From: a virus
Reading direction: 5' to 3' (one strand)
Length of the DNA: 29,070 nucleotides
Virus record (IMG/VR): IMGVR_UViG_3300024518_001259
Location: 1-29,070 of that record
The notes below the pieces were generated by a model that saw only the letters and a program-made list of their open reading frames with translations, ran no database searches and was not told where the DNA came from. Of the stretch, positions 10,119 to 24,835 are shown piece by piece (the stretch's first letter is position 1; each line of letters begins with the position of its first letter). A program made the position numbers and the translations under genes.

Positions 10119-11279
10119 ATGGGATTAGGAGAAGATTTCGTAAGTTTCGCACCACCAAAAGCCACAGACGGAGATGGTTCAGGATTGCCTGACGGTGGAG
10201 AGTTTACAACAGACTCTAGCGCAGGACAGACAGCATTAATCGTAGGAGCTAAGAGTGTAGCTAAGGATGGTTCCACAGCATTCAACCCCCTAGGTGGAGT
10301 TGATTCTGTAAGTATTTTATCAGACGCATCAGCGTCAACTATGCTGGCTACAGGAGCAAGAGCAATTGCAATTGGACATGACGCTACGGCTTCCGATACC
10401 GCATGTATCGCAATAGGAGACAGTGCAGTAGCATCCGAATCTGAAGCTATCGCAATCGGTGCTTATACGCTTTCAACAGACGGCACAGCGACATCAGGAA
10501 CTATAGCAATTGGTTCAGGCACAAGTGGAGTAGATGGAGCAAAAGCAACTGACTCAGAGTGTATCGCAATCGGTGGTTCTGGTAATGGTGGAGCTGCTGC
10601 AATAGCATCCGCTTTTGGGGATGTTGCTATTGGCAATAGATCAGTAGCGTCAGGGACAGGAACATGTGTAGCGATAGGATATTCAGCGACAGCGACAGTT
10701 AATGGTGCAATCGCAATTGGTAACACAGTCGCCTGCGCAGGATCAAAGGCTATTTGTATTGGTCAGGAAACTGACGCATCTTCAAACGCTGTTAGTGGCA
10801 TAGCGATAGGCGGGCATAACTCTGCAAATCAAGGTGCATCAGTAACAGGGGATAACGCAATAGCGATCGGTGCAAACACTGATAATGCAGGGGCGAATGC
10901 CATTGCAATCGGTGGATCGACAACTAGTGCGGCAGGCGCACAGGTAACTGCTGGAGCGAGAGCAGTTGCTTTTGGGGCAGGCGCATCAGCAGGAGCCGCA
11001 GACGCATGGCAGTTTGGTGTAGGGACTAATTCAACTGCGAATAGTTTCCAGTTCAGTGATCTTGGTGGTAAAATCACAAATACCACAGTAGCTCAACCTG
11101 TATTAATACTAGACCAAGATGATGTATCAGAAGAAATGATGGAGTTTGATTGTGCGACAATAGGCACTGGTAATGCAATTGAGGCAATCGCCGCTAAATC
11201 ATTAACAACGACTCACTTTATTAAAGTAACAATCACAGGCGTAGGAACACGATACATTCCAGTAGGAACAATCGCATAA
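10119..11279 (+). CDS. Fibre with YadA/Hep_Hag-like trimeric repeats
   Basis: A 386-residue Gly/Ala/Ser-rich protein. Residues about 82-300 contain thirteen repeats of the pattern A-I-A-I-G-x(n)-A-x-A (for example AIAIGHDATAS, CIAIGDSAVAS, AIAIGANTDNA). This matches the head repeats of trimeric autotransporter adhesins such as YadA, which fold into a left-handed parallel beta-roll trimer. The first ~65 residues probably attach it to the virion, and the C-terminal ~55 (340-386, ending RYIPVGTIA) form a non-repeat cap. There is no signal peptide or autotransporter anchor, as expected for a cytoplasmically assembled phage fibre. It likely binds the host surface or decorates the particle. Repeat assignment is strong; the receptor-binding role is inferred. 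Confidence 0.8.
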   Translation: MGLGEDFVSFAPPKATDGDGSGLPDGGEFTTDSSAGQTALIVGAKSVAKDGSTAFNPLGGVDSVSILSDASASTMLATGARAIAIGHDATASDTACIAIGDSAVASESEAIAIGAYTLSTDGTATSGTIAIGSGTSGVDGAKATDSECIAIGGSGNGGAAAIASAFGDVAIGNRSVASGTGTCVAIGYSATATVNGAIAIGNTVACAGSKAICIGQETDASSNAVSGIAIGGHNSANQGASVTGDNAIAIGANTDNAGANAIAIGGSTTSAAGAQVTAGARAVAFGAGASAGAADAWQFGVGTNSTANSFQFSDLGGKITNTTVAQPVLILDQDDVSEEMMEFDCATIGTGNAIEAIAAKSLTTTHFIKVTITGVGTRYIPVGTIA

Positions 11280-12548: not shown

Positions 12549-13174
12549 TGCTTAACTTCCGTATATTTGACGGCAAGGGCAAGAAACACGGAGCTTCTGT
12601 TACGAAGGACAATGAGCTTTTAACTATTGCTTCGCCATATCCACCGCTAGAGCCATCTAAGACTAGACCGTTTCGTCAGTATTTTACTGTCGATGGGACA
12701 AGTTCAGGATCTAATGACATGGGCATAGACGGGAGTGTTACTCCTGTAGATTTCTACATTCGTGCTAATGGAGACATGGATAGGTATGTCACAGCTATTA
12801 ACATATTAGTGGGTTACGGAACCACAGGACAGCCCAATGAATGGGCAGACGGAACCGCACTAACTAACGGGATGCGATTAGCATGGCTTTCGGAGTTAGG
12901 AGAAATCGAGATACACGATGGCATTAAGTCTAATCAGGATATGTTTAGATTGAGCTTCGATTTAATCCCTACCAATTGGGAAGTTCGACATGTGAACGCA
13001 AGTAATGACTTCGGTTATATGTTCTCTATGGATTTAACGAAAATGGGATTACCTTATGGAATAAAATTAGATAGCGGAACAAGCCAGAAGTTAGTCATGT
13101 GTGTGAGAGATAATGCAGGGACAGATGCTGATAGTTTCAATATAATAGGATATGGATTTGAGCGATTTGTATGA
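12548..13174 (+). CDS. Beta-rich virion-type protein
   Basis: A 208-residue protein of unknown family. It carries a DGKGKKHGASVT opening similar to the previous gene product, then a beta-rich body (FRQYFTVDGT, VDFYIRANGDMDRYVTAINI, DMFRLSFDLIP, YGIKLDSGTSQKLVMCVRDN). It is probably a virion or baseplate component. It begins at the TAATG overlap and ends in an ATGA overlap with the membrane protein downstream. No catalytic motif or membrane segment is visible. Confidence 0.6.
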   Translation: MLNFRIFDGKGKKHGASVTKDNELLTIASPYPPLEPSKTRPFRQYFTVDGTSSGSNDMGIDGSVTPVDFYIRANGDMDRYVTAINILVGYGTTGQPNEWADGTALTNGMRLAWLSELGEIEIHDGIKSNQDMFRLSFDLIPTNWEVRHVNASNDFGYMFSMDLTKMGLPYGIKLDSGTSQKLVMCVRDNAGTDADSFNIIGYGFERFV

Positions 13175-13743
13175 GCGCAATACTGGACAGCATCTTACCC
13201 CTAGCTTCTACCCTTGGTGGTGGAGGTCTTGGTGTATTGACGGCGAAGTCATCTCAGTTCATGGAAATACAAGCTCGGGAGAAAGCAGACGAACGAGCAC
13301 AAACATTAGAAATGATGCGCATGGCGCATGGAAAAGAAAGAGAGCAAAGTGAGATTAATATACAGCCAACCTACAAAAATAAATTTCTTGGAATCAGATA
13401 CAATAAGATCAAAATCGGTCTGGAGTATAGTTCTAAGGCCGAGGCTCTTCTCATGTCTCCTGTTAATATCTGCAAGTTCGCTATTGCTGGCTTGTTCAGT
13501 TACGCATACTGCGACATCTGGCTATACAATGCCGTCCACAACCAGCAAATTGTCAGAACAGTATTACCCGACTCAGACGGATGGGGAATTAAACTCCTCG
13601 GACTCGAATTTACCAGTGCAGAGCAAATCATCGCAGAACTCAACTTGGGTGGACTCTCTGCCACTACCATGGCTCAGCCTGCTATTGCCATAATTTCTTA
13701 CGTAGTTTGCAATTTAACCTACAAACAACTTTCCAGAACATGA
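13171..13743 (+). CDS. Membrane protein, holin candidate
   Basis: A 190-residue protein with three hydrophobic segments: a Gly-rich N-terminal one (3-24, LPLASTLGGGGLGVL), one at about 98-119 (VNICKFAIAGLFSYAYCDIW) and one at about 166-183 (MAQPAIAIISYVVCN). A charged helical region (30-62) separates the first two. Phage proteins with this layout are often holins or holin-like, and its position directly before another small membrane protein supports a lysis cassette. It is coupled to both neighbours by ATGA overlaps. No sequence motif proves lysis function, and an internal virion membrane-interacting role is an alternative. Confidence 0.55.
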   Translation: MSAILDSILPLASTLGGGGLGVLTAKSSQFMEIQAREKADERAQTLEMMRMAHGKEREQSEINIQPTYKNKFLGIRYNKIKIGLEYSSKAEALLMSPVNICKFAIAGLFSYAYCDIWLYNAVHNQQIVRTVLPDSDGWGIKLLGLEFTSAEQIIAELNLGGLSATTMAQPAIAIISYVVCNLTYKQLSRT

Positions 13744-16770: not shown

Positions 16771-17073
16771 ATGGCATTATTATCAACACTAACAGGTGGC
16801 GGTGGAGTCAAGAGTGTGACACGTTACACTTTTGAGGCAGCAGCATTAACGAATAGCACGACAGATTGGTCACAGACAGTCACGATTACAGCAGTCGCTG
16901 ATATGGCTAAGACTAGCGTCAACCTTACAATGGGTGGCACAGCTCACGAAGGTGGCACAGCTAATTATGGCACAATAGGAGTTAGACTCGAATCAACCAC
17001 ATCTGTAGCTTACGTCTTAGGTGCTGTTGGCGGAGTTGAAACATTGGCATTTGAAGTAATAGAATATAATTAA
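16771..17073 (+). CDS. Small fibre-tip-like protein
   Basis: A 100-residue beta-rich protein with a Gly-rich N-terminus (TLTGGGGVKSV) and repeated Thr/Val strands (VTITAVADMAKTSVNLTMGG, IGVRLESTTSVAYVLGAVGG). Its end (LAFEVIEYN) is typical of small phage structural proteins encoded next to fibre genes. It starts without a Shine-Dalgarno sequence and its TAA overlaps the cupin ATG (TAATG). Probably a trimeric tip or fibre accessory; unproven. Confidence 0.55.
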   Translation: MALLSTLTGGGGVKSVTRYTFEAAALTNSTTDWSQTVTITAVADMAKTSVNLTMGGTAHEGGTANYGTIGVRLESTTSVAYVLGAVGGVETLAFEVIEYN

Positions 17074-17531
17074 TGGGTGAAGTAGCCACAGCATTTGATC
17101 AAAAAGATCATAATACGAAGATTGAGGAAGTTGAGAATCAGCTCCTCGACCTACCGCAAGTGGAAGCACCTGTGCGTAATATGTTTGCTCCTGGTGTTTA
17201 TATCAGGGAGATTACAATGTATGCTGGCTCAGTCGTAATAGGACATGAACATAAGACAGAACACTTCAACATCATCCTCACAGGAAAAGCTAAAGTCGTA
17301 CAAGATGATAAGACTTCGATTATTCAGGCTCCAGACATCTTTGTTTCTAAACCAGGTGTCAGGAAAGTTCTTCACATCATTGAAGATATGGTGTGGGCGA
17401 CTGTCCACCCTACTAAAGAAACGGACTTAACTAAGCTCGAAGAAGAGATAATCCAAAAGAGTGATGTATGGTTATACCACGAGAATAATTTAGAGTATAA
17501 TGCTAATAAGGAGCTTACCAATGAATTATAA
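17073..17531 (+). CDS. Cupin-fold protein
   Basis: A 152-residue protein with a cupin barrel. Motif 1 is G57-H-E-H-K-T-E-H-F-N-I-I-L-T-G71, supplying potential metal ligands H58, H60, E63 or H64; motif 2 includes PGVRKVLHIIED and WATVHPT, with H101 or H112 as a possible fourth ligand. Small cupins of this type occur in phage structural regions but their substrate is unknown; they could be metal enzymes or sugar-binding virion parts. It is coupled to the fibre-like gene before it, and its end overlaps the SET-domain gene by 11 bases. The cupin call is strong, the activity is not. Confidence 0.75.
   Translation: MGEVATAFDQKDHNTKIEEVENQLLDLPQVEAPVRNMFAPGVYIREITMYAGSVVIGHEHKTEHFNIILTGKAKVVQDDKTSIIQAPDIFVSKPGVRKVLHIIEDMVWATVHPTKETDLTKLEEEIIQKSDVWLYHENNLEYNANKELTNEL
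17508..17513 (+). promoter_or_regulatory. Ribosome binding site fixing the SET-gene start
   Basis: AAGGAG lies seven bases before the ATG at 17521. It shows that 17521, not the in-frame ATG at 17500, is the likely start. It lies within the 3' end of the cupin gene. Confidence 0.8.
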
Positions 17532-17919
17532 AGATTTCCTAAAGAACAATGGGATGACTGAGAATAAAGTCGTCCAATTCATGAGTATTCTTCCTGAGCC
17601 CGAACTTCCTGCTGAGGGAGATCACGTGTATCCTATCTTTTCTAAGATACAGGGAATAGGATTAGCTTCTAAGTTAGCCTTCAATGAAGGTGATACAGTT
17701 CTTACTTTATTAGATAACACAAAAAGGCAAGTAGGTGCTAGGTATTTAAACCACACACACAAACCAAACACTAAAGCAGTGATCTCTGAGAAAAATTTAC
17801 TAGCAATAGCAACCCGACCTATTTCAGTCGGAGAAGAGATCACCATATGCTACAATGAAAACGTCGTAGCATCTAGGGAATACACAAAAATATTTTTAAA
17901 TAAACAAAACAAGGATTAA
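17521..17919 (+). CDS. SET-domain protein, putative lysine methyltransferase
   Basis: A 132-residue protein covering a minimal SET domain. N-terminal SET motif: FSKIQGIGLASKLAFNEGD (about 40-58), like the usual GxGxxAxxxIxxGE. Central motif: RYLNHTHKPNTKA (74-86), matching the RxxNHSxxPN consensus with N77 and H78. C-terminal motif: AIATRPISVGEEITICYNE (95-113), matching A(T)R-I-x-x-GEE(L/I)TxxY with Y111 as the catalytic-type tyrosine. SET enzymes transfer methyl groups from S-adenosylmethionine to protein lysines. No long substrate-binding insert is present. The target is unknown; a virion protein or host factor is possible. The strong ribosome binding site supports real expression. Confidence 0.8.
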   Translation: MNYKDFLKNNGMTENKVVQFMSILPEPELPAEGDHVYPIFSKIQGIGLASKLAFNEGDTVLTLLDNTKRQVGARYLNHTHKPNTKAVISEKNLLAIATRPISVGEEITICYNENVVASREYTKIFLNKQNKD

Positions 17920-17921
17920 TT

Positions 17922-19085
17922 ATGAGTTGGGCAGCAGTAGCAGTAGTAGGTGTAGCAGCAGTAGCAGGAACATCAGCGTATCTTGCAAGTGAAGCGGAAG
18001 AAGAAGGTCGTGAGGATGCCACTAAAAAGACAGAGAACTTTGGATTCGCTGAAGAGGTATCGACACGAGGTATTAATCTTAGACGTTACGAAGCTTTCCC
18101 ACGTATCCTTGAAACACATAGAGATTTTGATAAACAGTTCTTCGCACAAAAAGCAGCACAAGTTGAGAGAGCAGATTCATTCCGTAGACGTGTTACTGAA
18201 GAAGACATCATCCCAGGCATCATGCGTGATCGTGAACAAATGTTCGCAGGAGATGTTAAACAATTTAACCAGCAGTTAAACCAGCAGGGAGGAGCATTCC
18301 GTGAGGGGCTCCTTAATATGTCCCCAGAGCTACGTTCTGCAGGGTATGGAGTTCAGGCTCAAGATGCTTTACTAGCTAAACTTTATGGACAAGCTCAAGA
18401 TGACCTAGATCGTGGAGGAAATCTTTCAGCTGAAGGAAATAGGGCAGTAGAGCAGGGAACTGCATCTGCAGTAGGACAAAGAGGTCGTGGAGCAGGAGCA
18501 TTTGGCGTAGGTCAACTAGCTCTCAATAGAGAATCAGCTCGTCAAGGTAGGGAAGATCGTTCTCGACAGTTTGCAGGACAAGTATTTGGTATGGGAGGAG
18601 AGTCACAGAGACGTAACCTTTTACAAGCTTCTCAGTTCACTAGCCCATTCTTGAACATGCTTTCACAATCACAGGCAGCAAATAGGCAGGCAGCAGGAAC
18701 ACCTTCACAGGCATTCACTCAGAACGCACAGTTCGCTGCTCATGCTACACCTGATGTTCCAGTATTTGATCCTAACGTAATGAACCTCGAACAGATGCGT
18801 TTAGGTATCGCTACTAACAATGCTAATGCAGCAATCCAAGGTGGTGTCAATCGTGGTCAATATATAGAAGGAGCTGGAGCAGCAATCTCATCAGCCTTCA
18901 CAGGTGGGATGAGTGGCCCAATCGCAGGGTATGGATCAGCAGCAGCAGGTTCAGGTGGTAATTCAGCTGCATTTTCAGATCCATCAACAGGTGGAGTGAT
19001 GGGACCAACAGGTCAACCTTTAATGCAAGGACCAGCCAACGCAAACTGGGGCGGATACCAAGGCGGAGCAAGTGTATTAGTTTAA
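17922..19085 (+). CDS. Internal virion (ejection) protein with N-terminal hydrophobic helix
   Basis: A 387-residue protein. Residues 3-22 (WAAVAVVGVAAVAGTSAYLA) form a strongly hydrophobic helix, followed by charged helices and a Gln/Ala/Gly-rich C-terminal half (GQRGRGAGAFGVGQLAL, GGMSGPIAGYGSAAAGSGG). This layout is common among podovirus internal proteins ejected with the DNA to form a conduit through the envelope. It is the first of three successive large genes of that type. It has an acceptable AAGGA six bases upstream of its ATG. No enzyme motif was recognised. Confidence 0.65.
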   Translation: MSWAAVAVVGVAAVAGTSAYLASEAEEEGREDATKKTENFGFAEEVSTRGINLRRYEAFPRILETHRDFDKQFFAQKAAQVERADSFRRRVTEEDIIPGIMRDREQMFAGDVKQFNQQLNQQGGAFREGLLNMSPELRSAGYGVQAQDALLAKLYGQAQDDLDRGGNLSAEGNRAVEQGTASAVGQRGRGAGAFGVGQLALNRESARQGREDRSRQFAGQVFGMGGESQRRNLLQASQFTSPFLNMLSQSQAANRQAAGTPSQAFTQNAQFAAHATPDVPVFDPNVMNLEQMRLGIATNNANAAIQGGVNRGQYIEGAGAAISSAFTGGMSGPIAGYGSAAAGSGGNSAAFSDPSTGGVMGPTGQPLMQGPANANWGGYQGGASVLV

Positions 19086-19088
19086 TTT

Positions 19089-19107
19089 AAAAGGAGATAA
19101 TATTATG
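19089..19107 (+). promoter_or_regulatory. Strong ribosome binding site
   Basis: AAAAGGAGATAA begins at 19089, 16 bases before the ATG at 19105; its first 12 bases are identical to the element before the decoration gene at 8099. Confidence 0.8.
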
Positions 19108-20982
19108 GCAGGACAATATTTAGCAGCAGCCGGAAGGCAAGCAGGACAACAGATCGCAGCAGCACAGCAGGAGCGTCACAATCGTCGTATCCAGCAAAGA
19201 GCCTTTGAAGTAAAGAAAGAGAAGGAACAATACAATCGCCTGATCCAGCAAAGAGATCTTGAAATGAAAGACAAGCAGCTCGACTTCGAACGGCGTCGAG
19301 TTAAGGTCCAAGAAGACACTTTGGCGTATAACGAGAGGCTTGCAGAGAATGTGTTATTAAAAAAAGCGCAAGACCAACGAAACTTCGCTTCGATGATAAA
19401 CAAGATCCACGGTAAAACAGGAGGAGCTGAAGCAGTATCGCCAACCTACCAGTTAGATTCCCAACCACTTGAACAACCTTCTGAGCTAAGTTTCCAAAAC
19501 ACTCCTGGAGTAGACCTCACAAGTGTTTTAGGAACACCTCGTGATGAAAACCAATTTGATCCAAAAACAGGAGAGTTTCTAGGAGAGGTCCCAACCACTC
19601 CCACTAAAGAAACAACCCTTGTAGGAGGGATAGATGACGCACCTCAAGAAGTGTTAGCAGCAGGAGAGCTTTTAAGAAGCCACCTAGCTGAATCAGGAGA
19701 GTTAGCAGGTAACGTTGATTTATATTCAACAAGTATCCCTGAACTATTTGAAAATGTCGGTAAGAAGATCTCTGAAGAGAAGAAAGGAGTCCGAGGCAGA
19801 GGGGGAGCAGTCGCTGTCTTAGAAAGATACGCCGCACAAATGGCTTCAGAAAAGACATCAGACCCTGAAGAACAAGTTAAAATTGCAAAAGAAATTATCG
19901 AAGGGATTAAAGAAGGTAAGCTTCCTAAAAGGACTCTCCAATTCCAAGAATTCACTTCCCCTATAGGTCCTGAAAAAGAACCTATTCCTAGTTTAGATAG
20001 ATTCATGTCGGACGATGCCCTCATACAAACTGACGGGAGCTTACTTGAAGGCGTTGGTCCTGATGGATTACCTTACTCTGATTCGACAGCTTTCCCGAAA
20101 GGAACCGACCAAGTAGTTAATCGCACAATGCTTACTCCAGGATCTCCAGCCGTAGAACCTACAAGCCTAGCCGACCGAGTAGGAGGGATGGAGTCTCTAG
20201 CAATGTTAGAAGAAGATTTTGCGGAACTCCCTAAAGATATGCAGGAGAGCCTGGTTAAAAAAGCTATTGAACATGATGAAAAGAATTCAATCGACGCTTC
20301 ACTTAAACGCAGAGCTTTAATAGCTAATACTAAGACCGCAGTCGCTAACGCTGCTCGCACGGAGAGGAAAAACTACATCGAAGCTCAGAATATGGGTTCT
20401 CTATCTGAGGCAGACCAGAAGAGAGTTGTCCCGATATTTGATGGACAGATGGCCACGAATAGCACTGAAGCTACGAATGTGAATGAATCGGCGGTATCCG
20501 TCCTCACCGCTGTCCCGAAGATTAACGAGCTACTGCATATAGTAGAAACTTTTGACATGGCAGATTATGCAGACCCTGCTAAACTATCAGAACTACGTGG
20601 ACGTATTGGAACACTGAAAGGATTCTTGATCGGAGATTTACGCCTACCTTTAGTAGGACCAGGAGCACTGTCTCAGGCTGAGTTAGATATTCTTAATAGT
20701 ATTGTGAGAGATCCTACTCAATTCCTTTCAATGAAGGAAGGTAACAGGTCTTCATTACAATCACTTAAAGCTAAGATTGCTGATAGTTTCTTAGTCAAAG
20801 CTAAGGTTGCGGGGATTAAAGATCTTAATAAGATGGACCCTGAACTCAAGAAGTTAGTTGAAACATCTAAGAACTACGTGAGATATTATGACTCCGCAGA
20901 ACAGGCGGCACAAGCTGGGTTAGAAGACGGAACTCGTGTCCACATTCCTGGTAAAGGAGTCGGAATCTACAAAAAGAGATAG
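19105..20982 (+). CDS. Internal virion (ejection) protein, coiled-coil N-terminus
   Basis: A 625-residue protein. The first ~85 residues are a Gln/Arg/Lys/Glu-rich coiled coil (RIQQRAFEVKKEKEQYNRL, LQDFERRRVK-like spacing). The middle is acidic and Pro-rich, and the C-terminal third has conserved-looking helices (LRGRIGTLKGFLIGDLRL, then LSQAELDILNSIVRDPTQFL) of a kind found in internal proteins of other podovirus-like phages. It probably forms part of the ejected DNA conduit or the internal core. There is no signal peptide or obvious catalytic site. It carries the strong ribosome binding site shared with the decoration gene. The next gene starts seven bases after its stop. Confidence 0.65.
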   Translation: MAGQYLAAAGRQAGQQIAAAQQERHNRRIQQRAFEVKKEKEQYNRLIQQRDLEMKDKQLDFERRRVKVQEDTLAYNERLAENVLLKKAQDQRNFASMINKIHGKTGGAEAVSPTYQLDSQPLEQPSELSFQNTPGVDLTSVLGTPRDENQFDPKTGEFLGEVPTTPTKETTLVGGIDDAPQEVLAAGELLRSHLAESGELAGNVDLYSTSIPELFENVGKKISEEKKGVRGRGGAVAVLERYAAQMASEKTSDPEEQVKIAKEIIEGIKEGKLPKRTLQFQEFTSPIGPEKEPIPSLDRFMSDDALIQTDGSLLEGVGPDGLPYSDSTAFPKGTDQVVNRTMLTPGSPAVEPTSLADRVGGMESLAMLEEDFAELPKDMQESLVKKAIEHDEKNSIDASLKRRALIANTKTAVANAARTERKNYIEAQNMGSLSEADQKRVVPIFDGQMATNSTEATNVNESAVSVLTAVPKINELLHIVETFDMADYADPAKLSELRGRIGTLKGFLIGDLRLPLVGPGALSQAELDILNSIVRDPTQFLSMKEGNRSSLQSLKAKIADSFLVKAKVAGIKDLNKMDPELKKLVETSKNYVRYYDSAEQAAQAGLEDGTRVHIPGKGVGIYKKR

Positions 20983-20989
20983 TAATAGT

Positions 20990-23900
20990 ATGCCTATAGA
21001 ATACGCTGACCAGAAATCTGTTCATTCTCTAGGAGGAGGATACATTGAATTCGATGATGACGCTACTGGAGAAGGTGGAGGTTATATCGAATTTGAGAAT
21101 CAAGTTATGGACCGTAGGTTTGAAACTCCTGACCCACGGAAGCAGTCATTCACTGAATTTAAGTTGATGAAGTCTCGTGAGGCAGATACGTCCCTATATG
21201 AAGATGCTACTGAGTTTATGAACGGGGTAGCAACAGGGATAGGGCAACTATTCCGGATGGGAATGAACGCTACAGAGGAGGGGTATGAAGCTATCCAGCG
21301 TGGTGAATATGATAAACTAGCTATGTCTGGAGTAGAAGGAGTAGCTAAAGGAATCTTTGATACAACAAACTTAGCAGAATCTATTGCGGGGAACGTAGGA
21401 GACTATTTTGTAGATGATGAAACTGCTTTGTTCAGACAGTTCTCTCGTGCTAAAGAAGAGAGGGATGATTTTGAAACTCGTGAAGCAGGTTTAGTATTTG
21501 ATCAAGAGCAGACATTTAAGAATTTAACAGAGGTAGGAAGTGTTGTATTAGATCCACTTAATTTAATAGGGTTAGGACTAACTTCAAAAGTAGCTAAAGC
21601 TTCTAAACTTGGACAGACAGCAATCAAAGCGGGGAACCTTTTAGACATGCCAGCTAACCTGACACGTAAAGCATTACGAGGAAGTCTTAAAGGAGGAGCT
21701 AAAGGAGCAGCTATCTTAGCATCAGCTTCTGCAAAACCTCTCCGTGTTTTATCAAAAGGAGCCGAGAAAGCTGAGAACATTATAGGTATCCCTAATGATG
21801 CTATCACTGGAGTTGTATCTAAAACTCTTGGCATCTCTCCTTCAGATGCAGGACTTTTAAGACACGCAACTCCTGTAGGACAGTTAGCTACACCGCTAGC
21901 ACCACTTGCTACAGCTGAACTTGGAGCGAAAGCTGCAAAGATAGGACTTGGTGGAGCAGCAAACTTAGCTGACGACGCTGCAGCATTATTTAATGCGTTA
22001 GGAGACCCATCTAGGCAACTACGTTTTATCGAAAAAGCTATCCAAGATAAATCAATTTCACCTGCTACTAGAAAAGCGTTATCAATTGCTGGTTCAGGTG
22101 GAACTAAAGCAATGGATCTAGCATTCAACTCTCTTTCCAATGGTGCATCCGCAGCATCCCTTCAGGGAATCTTCGCTGCAATGGCTGGACAGAATCCTAA
22201 TGAAGTAGGTCAAGCAGTTGGGACAGGTTTAGCATTTGGTGGAGTCATGCCATTTGGTCCTAAAGGAGGAGCTGATCAAGCTGCACGGGACAAAGGAAGT
22301 ATCTCATATCTCCAAGCTAAGTTTAGTAAAGACCAGATGGATAACTTTAACAAGCTCCCTGATAACTCTCAGAAGTTAGTAGCATCTTTACTAGAATCTG
22401 GGATTGAAGCTAATGTCATTCTCCAGGATAAGAAAACTTTTACTGATACATACAACAGGGAGTCTGGGCAGAGCGTCAAGAGTCTCGACACCGCGGGGTT
22501 TATCGCTGAGAACGGTAGCATCTTCGTAAACAGTGACGCTAAGAGTGTAGACATTGACTCAGTTGTGCTACATGAAGTAGGACACAGAGTAGCTAGGGAA
22601 ATGGTATTAGAAAACCGTGGAGGTTCTATTGTAGGACTCCGTAATGAGATCCTTAAAGACTTTCAAAGCCCCACTGGAACTGAACTCACTACCACATCTG
22701 GAGCTAAAGTAAAAGTAGGTGGAGTTTTAGAGAAATTTTACAAAGACTATAACAGCCAAGTCGCCGATCAACATAAGATAAAAGATGCTGATACTCTAGT
22801 TGATGAGTATTTAGCAGACAGCCTGGGTGTTCTGTTTGACGAAACTGATTTCAATGCGGTCGAAGCTATGCGAAAGACCCCTGGAACGCTCGAAATGTTA
22901 AGCAGAACATCCCATGCTATGCTCTCAAAGTTGGGGTTGGTTGATCCAGAGACAGGAGGGAAGATGAAAAACTTCACACCTATCTCGAAGTCACTGGTTA
23001 AGAATCCAATGATCCAAAGAGCATTGAAGAATCATGCATCTTTAGATAAAGCAATTGAACTCCATGCAGGAGATCGTGCTAAATCGGTCAAGAGGAGGTC
23101 TGGTCAGTCTGATGAATCTGTTATAAGAGGTCAAGATGTAGATCCAGGAGAAGTATTTATAGCCAGTGATCTTGATATCTCTCAACCTGGTGTGAAGAAG
23201 ATCGTAGGTAATTATTTTAATAACACAATTGTCGAACCACGTCAAGCTGCTCCAGGTAAAACAGGAGAGAACATTGGATCTGTTATCGCTGACAGCTACT
23301 TTGACGCAGTCGGAGCAACTCCCACAATGAGGAGAGTCGCTACGGGATTTGAGAAAGCTATTGCTGAAGTAGGTTCTGTTAAGTTCTGGAAGAAGAAAGG
23401 CAAGAATGACTTCCAAGTTAAAGAAGGTGTCCCATTTGGTTTCATTATCAATCAGAGTAATGGTAACATATCTGTTAAGTATTGGAACCAATTAAACCTG
23501 AACAAATTACTTTCTGATCTGAAATCAAAAGGGTTAATAGATTCTGTTAAGAGTATGCAGACCCAGATTGAAGCAGCACGTCAACGTAATGCACAAGGTC
23601 AGAACATATCAAATGAAAAGATTGCTGCTCTATTCGGAGCATTACCTGATACCCTATCTACGAAAGATGCTAAGTCGATTGCGATGTTAGCTCAGAAGCG
23701 TGGAGGAGTATTCGAGCAGGTGTCTATTAAAGATATTAGAGCATTCAAGGACCACAATACACCAGGCATGGGAGTGAGACACTACAATGCACTGATGAAT
23801 ATGCGTCCTGATGGAGGGGTTCCTGTTAATGGTGGCGATAAGACTCACTCTGCAATCAACGAAGGACTTAATGTTTCTTCTGTAAATGAAGGGGGACACT

Positions 23901-24835
23901 TGATAGAAATGGAAGTCCAGACACCAGATGGGAGAGGAAATCTGCGAGCAGGGGCTGCAGACGATAACAAATCTGTCTTAATATCCGACTCATACCTTCC
24001 TGATGACCTCCAGGATACTGGACTCGGAACTAAAATGTATTCTGAGTTGATCGATCAATCTTTTAAAGAAGGGTTTGACGTTGTGTATTCAGACTCAACC
24101 GTTTCTCCAAGTGCAGACCGTGTGTATCAATCCCTTAAAAAACAAGGGTATTCTGTCATACCTGATCCATCAGTAACGACGAAGGGGACTGACAAAGTAT
24201 CTAAGAAAGCCGTCTACGCAGTGGTGGCGGATAAAGAGACTAACCCTAACTTCGTGAATAAGGAAGTATCTACTAAAGCAACTTCCTCAATCGCAGATGG
24301 CCTCTTAGCAGATAGGACTCAAGTGGTTGATAATATCAAACAGTCACTCGACTCAAGGGAGAACACCTTGTTTGACTTATCGATGGAAGACCTACGCTCT
24401 GATATAAGTAAATCAGGATTTTTTACTCACGGTGGAGGGATCGGTGTTAAAAAGAACAAAGCTAAATTTTCTAAAAGAGTTAAAAAAGCTGTCCCCGACA
24501 TCACGGTAGGGCAAGTGAACGACATCTACAATATGGTTTCTATAGCAGTCCGTGACGGGAGGACTCATTTTAAAAAGAATAACTTAGTAGAAAACAAAGT
24601 CACTCAACTCAGGAAAAAGATCAATGCGAGGGGGGATAAACCTGATGGGATCGTGTGGTCTAACTTTGATGAGAGTGATGTAGAAATTTTTAAAGTAGGG
24701 GATAAGGATATAAAAGACGTTCTACAAAGCATAGAAAAAGTAGGGGTAGATAAATTTCGAATCTACGAAGATTCTTTTAACAGAATTGTAATCAAAGAGA
24801 AAGAAAAAATACCAAACCCCTACCACCTAATCTAA
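20990..24835 (+). CDS. Giant internal virion protein with zincin and GNAT-like domains
   Basis: 1281 residues from the ATG at 20990; a GTG at 20936 would overlap the previous gene. Two GGGYIEF repeats lie at 15-21 and 29-35. Residues about 180-440 are Ala/Gly-rich amphipathic helices, as in membrane-penetrating ejection proteins. A zinc-peptidase motif HEVGH is at 528-532 (after IDSVVL), with DEYLAD at 605-610 offering E606 as a possible third ligand. Around residues 970-1080, LQDTGLGTKMYSELIDQSF and SDSTVSPSADRVYQSLKKQG fit the acetyl-CoA-binding motif of GNAT acetyltransferases. The likely role is a multi-domain protein ejected into the host at infection, locally degrading or modifying targets. 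Domain motifs are seen; activities are not proven. No lysozyme or transglycosylase motif was seen. Confidence 0.75.
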   Translation: MPIEYADQKSVHSLGGGYIEFDDDATGEGGGYIEFENQVMDRRFETPDPRKQSFTEFKLMKSREADTSLYEDATEFMNGVATGIGQLFRMGMNATEEGYEAIQRGEYDKLAMSGVEGVAKGIFDTTNLAESIAGNVGDYFVDDETALFRQFSRAKEERDDFETREAGLVFDQEQTFKNLTEVGSVVLDPLNLIGLGLTSKVAKASKLGQTAIKAGNLLDMPANLTRKALRGSLKGGAKGAAILASASAKPLRVLSKGAEKAENIIGIPNDAITGVVSKTLGISPSDAGLLRHATPVGQLATPLAPLATAELGAKAAKIGLGGAANLADDAAALFNALGDPSRQLRFIEKAIQDKSISPATRKALSIAGSGGTKAMDLAFNSLSNGASAASLQGIFAAMAGQNPNEVGQAVGTGLAFGGVMPFGPKGGADQAARDKGSISYLQAKFSKDQMDNFNKLPDNSQKLVASLLESGIEANVILQDKKTFTDTYNRESGQSVKSLDTAGFIAENGSIFVNSDAKSVDIDSVVLHEVGHRVAREMVLENRGGSIVGLRNEILKDFQSPTGTELTTTSGAKVKVGGVLEKFYKDYNSQVADQHKIKDADTLVDEYLADSLGVLFDETDFNAVEAMRKTPGTLEMLSRTSHAMLSKLGLVDPETGGKMKNFTPISKSLVKNPMIQRALKNHASLDKAIELHAGDRAKSVKRRSGQSDESVIRGQDVDPGEVFIASDLDISQPGVKKIVGNYFNNTIVEPRQAAPGKTGENIGSVIADSYFDAVGATPTMRRVATGFEKAIAEVGSVKFWKKKGKNDFQVKEGVPFGFIINQSNGNISVKYWNQLNLNKLLSDLKSKGLIDSVKSMQTQIEAARQRNAQGQNISNEKIAALFGALPDTLSTKDAKSIAMLAQKRGGVFEQVSIKDIRAFKDHNTPGMGVRHYNALMNMRPDGGVPVNGGDKTHSAINEGLNVSSVNEGGHLIEMEVQTPDGRGNLRAGAADDNKSVLISDSYLPDDLQDTGLGTKMYSELIDQSFKEGFDVVYSDSTVSPSADRVYQSLKKQGYSVIPDPSVTTKGTDKVSKKAVYAVVADKETNPNFVNKEVSTKATSSIADGLLADRTQVVDNIKQSLDSRENTLFDLSMEDLRSDISKSGFFTHGGGIGVKKNKAKFSKRVKKAVPDITVGQVNDIYNMVSIAVRDGRTHFKKNNLVENKVTQLRKKINARGDKPDGIVWSNFDESDVEIFKVGDKDIKDVLQSIEKVGVDKFRIYEDSFNRIVIKEKEKIPNPYHLI

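Follow-up and report, generated by a model that had tools for sequence, protein, structure and literature searches.

A putative ejection protein of an environmental podovirus-like virus combines a zincin-type domain with a predicted GNAT fold

Introduction

Polyvalent proteins, described by Iyer et al. in 2017 (PMC5512222), are large, multidomain proteins encoded beside late virion genes, and packaged zincin and GNAT domains have been known in this form since then. Their zincin-like MPTase members carry HExxH and a Glu on a later helix, with further effector domains, including GNATs and ARTs, in the same chain. The zincins, which were linked to the structure of anthrax lethal factor, were suggested either to process the chain itself, as in DdrB of phage P1, or to have effector activity, and the RimI-like GNATs were proposed to modify proteins (PMC5512222). 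A giant ejected protein with a zincin-type domain is also known from coliphage N4, whose virion RNA polymerase contains HExxH in its C1 domain; the sections of the source cited here describe no GNAT for it (PMC12633501). In Drulisvirus phages, the internal core protein that ends the structural block (KpV48 gp48, SFN6B gp40) contains a GNAT segment; the KpV48 protein is T7 gp16-like and belongs to PHROG 342, "internal virion protein with endolysin domain", and the SFN6B record annotates an N-acyltransferase domain. The Rac acetyltransferase of phiKMV-like phages is a GNAT proposed to modify host proteins during infection, made in the cell as a free-standing product (PMC7552054).

Here we analysed a 29,070-base metagenomic, podovirus-like IMG/VR virus record (the window), which encodes a large protein of the polyvalent kind, with at least two distinct domains (GNAT and zincin-like) and a location beside late virion genes. 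In this protein a HExxH motif and a Glu on a later helix are followed by a GNAT, a domain not described for the N4 polymerase in the sections cited and, unlike Rac, part of a giant chain. Unlike the polyvalent MPTase proteins, it has two homologues with an altered or lost zinc site.

Gene layout and the probable ejection block

The + strand of the window carries a terminase-like ORF, portal, major head protein and tail genes, and finally three ORFs of 387, 625 and 1281 aa that directly follow the structural genes; the − strand beyond this block encodes a DUF5906 protein and a family A DNA polymerase. The terminase-like ORF, so named from a Walker-like GGNRSSKS read by eye, is related to one in Phage C75C1. 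The block consists of the following ORFs:

17922..19085, + strand: first ejection-block ORF, 387 aa, at the gp14 position; hydrophobic N terminus by hydropathy; matches a 331-aa ORF of G001 (E=2.7e-29)
19105..20982, + strand: second ejection-block ORF, 625 aa, at the gp15 position; matches a 519-aa ORF of G001 (E=2.5e-10)
20990..24835, + strand: giant ORF, 1281 aa, identified by translation, gene order and homologues in G001 (1010 aa) and G002 (1363 aa)

The counterpart block in G001 reads 331-519-1010 aa, and the block ORF sizes are within the range of T7 gp14, gp15 and gp16 (PMC8954989). By sequence, the 1281-aa protein matched neither PHROG 342 nor any other gp16 family; since its full length matched no PHROG, we place it at the gp16 position and do not call it a gp16 homologue. 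The original prediction had called it an ejection-type protein, which agrees with its gp16-like place: because it comes third in a block that is also present in G001, with sizes like those of gp14-gp15-gp16, we infer that it is likely ejected with the DNA. It could instead stay unpackaged and have a late role, such as the maturation of heads or tails, as the case for packaging is one of gene position only. Its third place in a gp14-gp15-gp16-like block and the GNAT relative in an internal virion protein family make this very unlikely.

Several neighbouring ORFs were also recorded. Downstream of the tail genes and ahead of the ejection block, a 139-aa ORF (17500-17919, +) matches the SET domain model PF00856 (35.9 bits; cut-off 22.4) and has a relative in Pseudoalteromonas phage PH1 (tblastn, E 8e-9), adjoined by a cupin-like 152-aa ORF (17073-17531, +; Cupin_2 E 3e-4, under cut-off). 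A 179-aa ORF just ahead of the G001 block looked sulfotransferase-like by eye. YadA head repeats (PF05658, above cut-off) occur in a 386-aa ORF (10119-11279, +), probably a fibre or tail protein. A 121-aa ORF (13328-13693, +) containing the lipobox-like LLISASSLLLAC overlaps a 190-aa ORF (13171-13743) in a different frame; it may encode a spanin nested in the longer ORF or be open by chance, and no relative of it was found among the related loci examined.

The giant ORF and its nearest homologues

The frame 20990-24835 is open throughout and encodes 1281 aa with no internal stop. The stop-to-stop ORF offers an alternative GTG start at 20936; the ATG at 20990 comes after the upstream stop at 20982 and is the natural start. 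We divided the protein as follows:

21116..22300, + strand: N-terminal module, residues 43-437, family-specific, Gly/Ala-rich; homology to G001 and G002
22307..22969, + strand: zincin-like domain, residues 440-660; homology to G001 and G002, AlphaFold topology (pLDDT 66)
22571..22585, + strand: HEVGH, residues 528-532, with two candidate zinc-ligand His and a candidate general-base Glu
22802..22819, + strand: DEYLAD, residues 605-610, with E606 as candidate third zinc ligand; DEIFAE at the matching place in related phages
23261..23749, + strand: middle domain, residues 758-920, common to G002 by alignment
23852..24244, + strand: predicted GNAT acetyltransferase domain, residues 955-1085; AlphaFold and Foldseek against PDB, Drulisvirus core-protein homology
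24008..24064, + strand: GNAT motif A, Q1008-x-x-G-x-G acetyl-CoA loop and next helix
24089..24148, + strand: GNAT motif B, residues 1034-1053, containing Y1046
24287..24832, + strand: C-terminal region, residues 1100-1281, no match found

At full length the protein had no match in Pfam, PHROGs, NCBIfam, PDB sequences or GenBank phages, and an RNA polymerase was not found in it. Just two true homologues of it were found, the giant ORFs of G001 and G002, both from IMG/VR. Identity to G001 was 42% across residues 43-428 and 27% across 427-704, and the N-terminal module of G002 was homologous to that of the window (E=3e-16). The three proteins have the N-terminal module and zincin domain in common, and window and G002 also the middle domain (alignment score 74; 300 shuffles reach at most 64). 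Scanning of genome contigs with the N-terminal alignment gave no match, and a further scan with its best-conserved block returned G001 and G002 again and nothing else.

The GNAT domain

The order and spacing of GNAT motifs A and B, read in the original prediction, were confirmed in the translation, where the block at residues 1007-1053 contains LQDTGLGTKMYSELIDQSF at 1007 and SDSTVSPSADRVYQSLKKQG at 1034. Its acetyl-CoA loop, Q1008-D-T-G-L-G, aligned with RGKGVG of KpV48, and the block scored 112 against the KpV48 GNAT segment (shuffles 29.8 ± 4.8). An AlphaFold model of residues 920-1112, built from a four-sequence alignment, had GNAT topology with a mean pLDDT of 57 overall and 67-81 across most of the core. 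Foldseek against PDB returned a probability of 1.00, a best E of 3.4e-5 and 133 matches at E≤1e-3, and the matches listed were acetyltransferases or known GNAT relatives, with RimI one of them. PHROG 37402 matched the segment (E 2.7e-5); with Pfam Acetyltransf_1 the window segment gave 14.4 bits, under the cut-off of 20.7, and the homologous KpV48 segment passed with 30.4 bits. Sequence and model together argue strongly for a GNAT fold at residues 955-1085, as originally proposed. A DNA scan for GLGTKMY gave chance matches only.

The homology to Drulisvirus was seen for the GNAT segment only, which sits at about 307-384 in a chain of 1420 aa, towards its N-terminal end. Y1046 of the window occupies what we take to be the usual general-acid position of GNATs; the Drulisvirus homologues have W at this place. 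Besides its GNAT, the KpV48 core protein (L008 4020-8282) contains a candidate zincin motif, HELIH, near residue 561 in the numbering of the annotated protein.

The zincin-like domain

HEVGH and DEYLAD were found where the original prediction had placed them, with 72 residues between the two. In 20,000 shuffles of the 1281-aa protein, HExxH occurred in 0.9%, HE-hydrophobic-[G/A]-H in 0.07%, and HExxH followed after 60-110 residues by [DEQ]ExxA[DE] in 0.01%. An AlphaFold model of residues 422-709 (three-sequence alignment, mean pLDDT 66) placed HEVGH inside helix 101-120 of the model and DEYLAD inside a later helix, 180-197, at moderate model confidence. Searched against PDB with Foldseek, this model had no significant match: lethal factor was best (E 0.28, probability 0.18) and filled most of the top matches, with IrrE/PprI also listed, all below significance. 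Two viral proteins did match, A0A1B1IV98 (E 1.9e-8) and A0A1B1IPB7 (E 6.3e-4). No zincin model of Pfam, PHROG or NCBIfam scored above cut-off for the protein.

A terminase-based scan yielded 80 related loci, and 46 contigs were then searched in full. Ten contigs besides the window contained a giant ORF with HExxH followed, 76-89 residues on, by DEIFAE or QELYAE, and the motif took the form HE[F/I/L]GH ... DEIFAE in about ten related giant ORFs; HEAGH appeared in another set (L020, L022, L026). The joint signature was present in 13 of the 681 ORFs of at least 300 aa, every one such a giant ORF or a piece of one. Because many of the zincin-bearing ORFs are near-identical, they represent about three independent lineages. 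The window zincin segment was more similar to those of L097, L134 and L026 than all 300 shuffles were, and its similarity to L112 and L121 did not exceed all 300. Profile-profile comparison with the HEFGH group reached probabilities of up to 54%, which is suggestive only, and the window N terminus did not match the N termini of the zincin-bearing giant ORFs in related phages. HEYLH, a candidate zincin motif, was also seen in G036.

The C-terminal contents of these giant ORFs vary: ART-PolyVal (PF18760, 44.8 bits; cut-off 31.2) and an E3-binding-like stretch in L026 (446-5590), DUF7178 in L097, and the GNAT in the window.

The original zincin assignment thus held for motif recurrence and helix topology and went without a significant match to a solved structure; the evidence that residues 440-660 form a zincin-type domain is good but indirect. 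HEVGH might be a chance match in a domain unrelated to zincins, a view that draws on the missing motif in G001 and the non-significant PDB matches. The joint motif in 0.01% of shuffles, its recurrence in related giant ORFs and its placement on model helices make this extremely unlikely.

The candidate zinc site in the nearest relatives

All candidate ligands are kept in the window. The corresponding sequence of G002 is TEELGHH (EELGH), where the first His is substituted and the counterparts of E529, H532 and E606 are kept. G001 has FTNRVG in the motif region and lacks HExxH in the whole protein; its third-ligand position is Arg by alignment, the exact register being alignment-dependent. The GNAT was not found in either homologue. 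The original prediction had named non-conservation of the two motifs in homologues as grounds for its refutation, and by this measure it failed for the two true homologues; more distant giant ORFs do keep the zinc site. Since the zinc site is altered in one homologue and lost in the other, zincin catalysis is not general or essential to the family.

The ejection core could use the zincin and GNAT folds for structure and not for catalysis, the zincin slot being a scaffold with dispensable activity and the GNAT fold aiding assembly, as suggested for T7 gp13. Besides the missing HExxH and Glu of G001 and the EELGH of G002, the Drulisvirus W in place of Y1046 favours such a role, as does Cobavirus, where a GNAT gene next to those of the internal virion proteins has been equated with T7 gp13, itself suggested to act in virion morphogenesis (PMC6775973). 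We consider it unlikely, because the zincin ligands and acetyl-CoA loop are intact in the window and about ten related contigs retain HExGH...DE, which argues for catalysis there. Alternatively, as the original prediction proposed, the ejected zincin might cleave host proteins as an effector in the first minutes of infection, with the acetyltransferase acting beside it. Iyer et al. also considered an effector role for polyvalent zincins (PMC5512222), and the nearest listed solved folds, below significance, are lethal factor and IrrE-type proteases; site loss in relatives fits an accessory better than a core takeover function, although effectors can also be lost, and we rate this reading as quite unlikely.

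Discussion

We favour, with a probability of roughly 0.55, a third ejection protein of the polyvalent kind, consisting of a packaged body, an optional zincin that is probably self-processing and an exchangeable C-terminal GNAT effector. The N-terminal module and zincin-fold domain would form the body, packed within the capsid and leaving together with the DNA, and the C-terminal part would be an exchangeable effector cassette, in the window a GNAT. The window zincin (HEVGH and E606) may bind zinc and cut its own chain, during assembly or after entry; this cleavage would free the GNAT, which may then acetylate a host protein early in infection. For the zincin, we judge self-processing at least as likely as cleavage of host proteins. 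The N4 virion RNA polymerase, which also has a HExxH domain, is packaged unprocessed, and this counts against self-processing (PMC5512222). A further caution is that an intact zinc site is missing from the closest homologues.

The interesting part of this locus is the series of intact, altered and dead zincins among nearest relatives. We tentatively suggest, as a doubtful but possible extension, that the family has a single zincin slot, intact in the window, altered in G002 and dead in G001, with a swapped C-terminal effector, so that a protease fold became structural and its catalysis optional.

With these results, the range of probably packaged zincin and acetyltransferase domains reaches a group of environmental, podovirus-like viruses without an isolate, whose last giant structural ORF differs among relatives at its effector end, with GNAT, ART or DUF7178. 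Homologues with and without the zinc site provide material on the role of the zincins that are common, and poorly understood, in virion proteins.
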